In this document: positions 23,747-24,099 of the stretch, one piece after another
How positions within the stretch are numbered: position 1 is the first letter of the stretch
How the letters are laid out: the number at the start of each line of letters is the position of its first letter
Assembly: GCA_022729795.1 (NCBI GenBank)
Contig: DZBD01000011.1
Location: forward strand, 1 to 33,482
DNA: 33,482 nt
Origin: Sulfuricurvum sp.
Lineage (GTDB): Bacteria; Campylobacterota; Campylobacteria; Campylobacterales; Sulfurimonadaceae
Direction: 5' to 3'
Notes under the pieces: generated by a model
The model's database searches: none
Told to the model about the DNA's origin: nothing
The model's input: only the letters and a program-made list of their open reading frames with translations
Program-made: the position numbers and the translations under genes

Positions 23747-23789
23747 AAAATTAAAGAACAAAGCACGAAAAATAACTATGCGAAGAATA

Positions 23790-24053
23790 ATACCAAATAC
23801 AGCTAACTATGCATACGCTAAACGAGCATAGCACATTGGAGTGCAAGGCGAAAAGACGTAGGAGCTACTAGTAGCTTCAAGTATTTTCAACGAAGCAATA
23901 CGATGTGCTATGCTCGCCCGTAGGGTAAAAGAGAAGCCCGCATCTACTTCGTTACATCTTTTTGGGTTAGCCATGCTAGCCCTGCAAAGATGTGCCTTGT
24001 AGTTACAGGCTTCTCTTTTATTTATCGTATGCATAGTTAGCTGTATTTGGTAT
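23790..24053. repeat. 264-bp element with perfect 28-bp terminal inverted repeats and nested hairpins; MITE-like or structured intergenic repeat
   Basis: Arms 23790-23817 ataccaaatacagctaactatgcatacg and 24026-24053 (exact reverse complement); inner perfect stems 23823-23836/23903-23916 and 23926-23938/24008-24020. Confidence 0.85.
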
Positions 24054-24099
24054 AAGATAGCAGATTGTATAATCGCATAAATTTAGTAAAGGAAATAAA

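Follow-up and report, generated by a model that had tools for sequence, protein, structure and literature searches.

Between the genes for LpxK (PF02606, upstream) and a DUF2018 protein (PF09442, downstream), the window, by which we mean the whole 33,482-nucleotide stretch of Sulfuricurvum sp. DNA analysed here, carries a short branched arrangement of inverted repeats, and the locus raises the question of what this element is and why its interior is so elaborately paired. The sequence-only reading had the upstream neighbour right and called the downstream gene HP0242-like, which the DUF2018 match corrects. Its paired arms were all found where it had placed them, but its extent of 264 bp (23790–24053) and its statement that there was no clear target-site duplication have to be revised: a 3 bp TAA stands on both sides, and the boundaries taken from this duplication and from the empty site described below give an element of 262 bp with the ends TACC...GGTA. 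The parts are as follows.

23788–23790, no strand: left TAA copy of the target-site duplication (TSD), from the sequence itself and the lone TAA of the empty site
23791–24052, plus strand (chosen arbitrarily): whole element, very likely a non-autonomous transposable element (MITE), from a second full copy, genus-wide copies, the TSD and the empty site
23791–23822, plus: left terminal inverted repeat (TIR) of the TACCA type, its complementarity kept in 23 elements while the letters vary
23823–23916, plus: hairpin A, with an outer stem (23823–23836 with 23903–23916) that holds core A, from the fold, covariation and wobble
23842–23898, plus: core A, from model R1 and a pattern scan of public genomes
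23917–23925, no strand: linker mini-hairpin CCCGTAGGG between hairpins A and B, from the fold
23926–24020, minus: hairpin B, with an outer stem (23926–23938 with 24008–24020) that holds the inverted core B, from the fold and wobble
23944–24001, minus: core B, from model R1
24021–24052, minus: right TIR, from the inverted repeat
24053–24055, no strand: right TAA copy of the TSD, from the sequence itself and the empty site

The further copies that the sequence-only reading anticipated exist. A second full copy lies in the window genome itself (G000:C68, 97% identity), along with partial copies and isolated ends, several of them at contig ends, as expected of repeats that break assemblies, and the element has matches in about half of the genus as sampled (51 of 101 genomes). 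Identical 3 bp flanks were found for 20 of 25 TACCA-type elements (10.1 expected by permutation), and the flanks were TWA in every case inspected; two related types behave in the same way, with identical flanks in 12 of 15 GAGCCTG-type elements (5.8 expected) and in 12 of 14 GAACYTG-type elements (8.9 expected). The orthologous site is empty in another genome of the genus (G057, locus L259), where a single TAA is found 5' of the DUF2018 gene; the alignment of the flanks across the insertion point scores 87, against a maximum of 57 for shuffled sequences. The window copy thus inserted as a 262 bp unit into a TAA 5' of the DUF2018 gene and duplicated this TAA. The element is shorter than 500 bp, is non-coding and is present in dispersed copies, and the copies, TIRs, 3 bp TSD and empty orthologous site together make it very likely that it is a MITE, one of the identities suggested from the sequence.

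The fold was also borne out. The terminal arms, noted as a perfect 28 bp repeat that could be extended, comprise 33 nt that are 97% complementary, including the 28 perfect base pairs (TIR sequence TACCAAATACAG). As RNA the element folds with an energy of −138 kcal/mol (z = −14.2; none of the shuffled sequences was as stable), and as DNA it gives z = −14.6 for the plus strand and −13.9 for the minus strand, so that the branched structure is far beyond chance by both RNA and DNA energies and on both DNA strands. An alignment of 23 TACCA-type elements, most of which were found by BLAST with the window element and not by structure, has a consensus fold of 98 pairs with 96.7% of the pair cells kept. 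The covariation test proposed with the sequence-only reading gave 420 two-sided changes in these 23 elements, compared with a mean of 121 and a maximum of 143 in shuffles, controls that leave shared ancestry uncorrected. The outer stems and TIRs differ in sequence from copy to copy and retain their complementarity, and the fold of the TACCA-type elements is under selection. One TACCA-type element, L112 from a Helicobacteraceae MAG, has an extra 40-nucleotide palindromic insert in hairpin B (AAGCGAAGCGCTCGGCGAAGCCGATG...), a second repeat nested within the first. A coding function can be rejected, in line with the earlier impression that there was no believable gene: across the 23 elements the longest stop-free stretch ranges from 37 to 85 codons, the element lengths differ by single bases and no reading frame is conserved. 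The right end of the MITE lies just 5' of TTGTATAAT and, judging from the sequence, may be near the promoter of the DUF2018 gene; ∼15 bp downstream of this end (window 24053–24075) stands a TATAAT that relatives conserve, and the terminal TTGGTA may serve as the −35 element of the DUF2018 gene.

Within this fold the two hairpins, A when read along the top strand and B along the bottom one, carry a common core, which is thus present in inverted orientation. Core A is a 51-nucleotide module, AAGGC..GTAG..CAA..AACGAAG, and the interval listed above adds three flanking bases on each side. Its consensus is C-AAGGC-[8 bp stem]-GNAG-[apical hairpin]-CAA-[stem]-AACGMA-G, with a length of 51 nucleotides in nearly all copies. 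Model R1 scores core A at 72.4 bits (E = 2.1e-17), with a similar sequence present in the model seed, and core B at 55.1 bits (E = 9.2e-13); the third-best match in the window reaches 15 bits. The internal loops are near-invariant and the stems around them covary freely, with 298 two-sided changes in 56 cores compared with 90 in shuffles, some columns having been fixed beforehand by the search pattern. No Rfam covariance model matches the window at its gathering score, a search by E-value returned weak chance matches and nothing else, and the same models applied to eight core-bearing loci gave tRNA matches alone. A literature search that reached few subscription journals found no published description of the core.

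The core is not confined to this genus. A scan of GTDB genomes for the exact core pattern gave at least 120 matches, where by our own estimate about 0.015 would be expected by chance; in an Oscillibacter control the forward pattern matched 68 times and the backward pattern not once. Among the matches listed are Sulfurimonas, Sulfurovum, Sulfurospirillum, Hippea, Oscillibacter, Ruminococcus, other Clostridia and Saccharospirillum. The core is present in at least 18 of 200 Campylobacterota genomes and at least 49 of 299 sampled genomes of Pseudomonadota (the phylum of Saccharospirillum), both being lower bounds since few candidates were scored per genome, and single genomes can hold many copies: at least 105 in Oscillibacter sp. 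1-3, 95 in a Ruminiclostridium MAG and 38 in a Sulfurospirillum MAG. Two further matches on viral contigs both lie in Oscillibacter-like elements.

In every element that could be delimited (120–320 bp), the core was found between inverted repeats. Two-core elements of ∼260–280 bp, with a CCC-loop-GGG linker, occur in Campylobacterota, Saccharospirillum and other Pseudomonadota (L333 and L337), and the linker CCCGAAGGG recurs in Sulfurimonas and in the Pseudomonadota elements L333, L337 and L343. One-core elements of ∼120–170 bp are found mainly in Bacillota and in some Pseudomonadota. Those in Bacillota (for example L106 and L105) have, outside the core, a second pair of conserved internal-loop letters that might be a further recognition site (GGATT..CGAG / CCG..AAGACG). 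The core is flanked by at least nine TIR kinds, with TNA, TA or CTAG-like targets; an element of two-core size from Pseudomonadota, L336, has ends (GGGAAGGTACGAATAAGTC) that we take to resemble those of IS5 itself. The conserved core is common to Campylobacterota, Bacillota and Pseudomonadota, and it is far older and wider than the window MITE, occurring in MITEs with unrelated TIRs. Some elements are reduced to little beyond their TIRs (L008, and about ten pairs 37–43 bp apart in the Hippea MAG G298), which suggests that the hairpins were lost by deletion. In this 1.7 Mb MAG, 86 repeat ends were counted, and full copies of 250–265 bp stand beside short pairs of TGAGACCACTGCAC repeats, such as C1:41988–42038, C4:32672–32725 and C10:29923–29973.

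The wobble pairs bear on what the core might do. Among the pair changes in the middle stem, scored over 77 cores, 44 leave G-T on the core strand and five leave A-C. In window-type elements the tally was restricted to pairs that both strands are predicted to form; on the plus strand it gives 25 GT and six AC pairs for hairpin A and two GT and 17 AC pairs for hairpin B, which folds best on the minus strand, and for the TIRs 13 GT and eight AC pairs. These counts imply selection on each core's own strand and, for the TIRs, on neither. Wobble is tolerated mainly on the top strand in A and on the bottom strand in B, which argues against one folded RNA. One-core elements show no preferred orientation relative to the genes beside them (12 sense, 13 antisense and seven divergent), and Oscillibacter cores divide 19 to 14 for read-in from adjacent genes. 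The single structured RNA offered by the sequence-only reading is disfavoured by the wobble pattern and by the indifference of one-core elements to gene orientation. With respect to replication, the G-rich strand carries 20 of 62 cores in several genomes, 21 of 65 Oscillibacter cores when judged by the nearest sample (p = 0.006) and 13 of 30 Oscillibacter cores with local sequence; these sets overlap, and the bias towards the C-rich strand is suggestive, weak and not firm in the local subset. In G296, orientation depends on the scaffold (C1, C5, C8 and C9), with 18 of 24 cores on the minus strand of C1 and 10 of 12 on the plus strand of C5. This runs roughly against the GC skew, and an orientation linked to replication is possible.

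The explanation that we favour, and consider rather probable, is that the MITE is moved in trans by a DDE transposase and that the core is a strand-specific single-stranded DNA module that aids it. A transposase encoded elsewhere, probably of the IS5 superfamily and targeting TNA (IS1031 group) or YTAR, would bind the TIRs and move the element; the core would be kept because it helps the MITE to spread or persist, acting as a single-stranded hairpin on its own strand, for example at the replication fork or in a transposition intermediate. A protein would recognize the folded core through its invariant internal loops, and the inverted pair would provide one functional hairpin per strand.

The same wobble pattern could instead arise if the core worked as RNA, since a transcript entering the element from either side always meets a sense core first. 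Such a folded core, acting in processing, anti-termination or RNA stability, might make insertions tolerable. Acceptance of G-U and rejection of A-C on the core strand are what a structured RNA would show, as are stems that covary around invariant internal loops, and the inverted pair offers a sense core whichever way transcription runs. The indifference of one-core elements and of the Oscillibacter cores to gene orientation and the lack of any Rfam match speak against this alternative, which we judge unlikely; own-strand selection without gene orientation leads us to prefer the single-stranded DNA hairpin to RNA with moderate confidence.

The TIRs suggest which enzymes may be concerned. Resident insertion sequences (ISs) of IS5 type have ends that match core-bearing elements for three kinds of TIR: an Oscillibacter IS (L211, ends GGTCTTGTTTGAAAAAT, DUF4096), a Ruminiclostridium IS (L212, ends GAACCTGTACCAATAG, DUF4096) and a Sulfurimonas IS (L228, ends GGGCACCTCTAAAAAC, DDE_Tnp_1 with an in-frame stop). 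The transposase with matching ends that the sequence-only reading had looked to was thus found for three other TIR kinds and not for TACCA: no autonomous TACCA-ended partner appeared by TIR pattern in seven genomes or through the transposase families PF13340, PF01609 and PF13586, and the window genome, a MAG that is 92% complete, has no match to any of the three. A complete Sulfurimonas genome of 2.3 Mb (G094) has at least 50 DDE_Tnp_1 matches, with ∼18 copies of one type. The 3 bp TNA duplication of the IS1031 subgroup is present in the window type as TWA; the GARCCTGTY-type TIR of that subgroup is present in the Bacillota relatives and absent from the window MITE. By analogy, the window MITE is likely to be moved by an IS5-type transposase.

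It might then be supposed that the window element is an ordinary deletion product of an IS5-type element, its core a functionless palindromic filler that was inherited or that converged by chance. TIRs that match resident ISs would fit, as would the stable stem-loops that MITEs commonly form (PMC10969869). None of the 47 transposase loci examined has a core inside it, however, the one core match being to a MITE adjacent to an IS fragment (L226), so that the core was apparently not inherited from an IS. Identical loops and the 51-nucleotide spacing, on different stems, in three phyla and with at least nine TIR kinds, together with the strand-specific tolerance of wobble, largely contradict such an origin, and we regard it as quite improbable. 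A REP-, BIME- or REPIN-like hairpin pair moved on single strands by a RAYT-type tyrosine (HUH) transposase would share the inverted design and strand-specific folding and make the DDE-type ends coincidental, which is very improbable given that the TIRs, 3 bp TSDs and empty site are hallmarks of DDE transposition and that the TIRs match DDE insertion sequences.

Returning to the core as a single-stranded DNA module, we tentatively extend this explanation, in a form whose chances we place slightly short of even, to an ancient strand-specific module that is exclusive to MITEs and that, in no fewer than three phyla, was repeatedly joined to TIRs belonging to different transposases. Bacterial MITEs are usually viewed as lineage-specific deletion products of ISs with an arbitrary interior. 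In these elements it is the interior that is conserved, its loops and spacing being common to three phyla although the ends appear to belong to different transposases. If the extended reading is true, the core is not a decayed IS; it would ride along with the elements and bring its own device, a single strand that folds and is bound by a host or transposition protein. The testable claim that MITEs possess a functional internal module follows, and a covariance model of the core could put a name to thousands of unannotated intergenic repeats.

Among known systems, ISLrh of the IS5 family, IS1031 subgroup, serves as the autonomous yardstick (PMC12016507). It shares the 3 bp TNA duplication, and its TIR is nearly the same as that of core-bearing elements in Bacillota (GAACCTGTCT...); it differs in that the TACCA repeats of the window are unlike its own and in that the core, found in MITEs, is lacking from the ISs. 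MITEPsy1 of Pseudomonas syringae, which transposes in vivo (PMC3189936), is likewise short and gene-free, with an IS5-type TIR (GGAAGGTCTG...) and a target duplication, but its target is a 4 bp CTAG/YTAA; as a carrier of the core it was rejected, since a homologue on plasmid pRSB105 (L348:31625–31725) that has the MITEPsy1 ends is coreless. The enterobacterial ERIC/IRU repeat, to which the sequence-only reading had likened the element as one option, is also an intergenic structured MITE, with loops that by eye resemble AAGGC and AACGCAG; it differs in its length of 127 bp and in its TA termini (PMC2229807), and homology was rejected when R1, run on an E. coli ERIC with filters off, gave 3.4 bits (E = 1.6). 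REPINs and BIMEs resemble the element in being an inverted pair of palindromic units, whereas the window MITE has long TIRs, a TSD, an empty site and units with two conserved internal loops.
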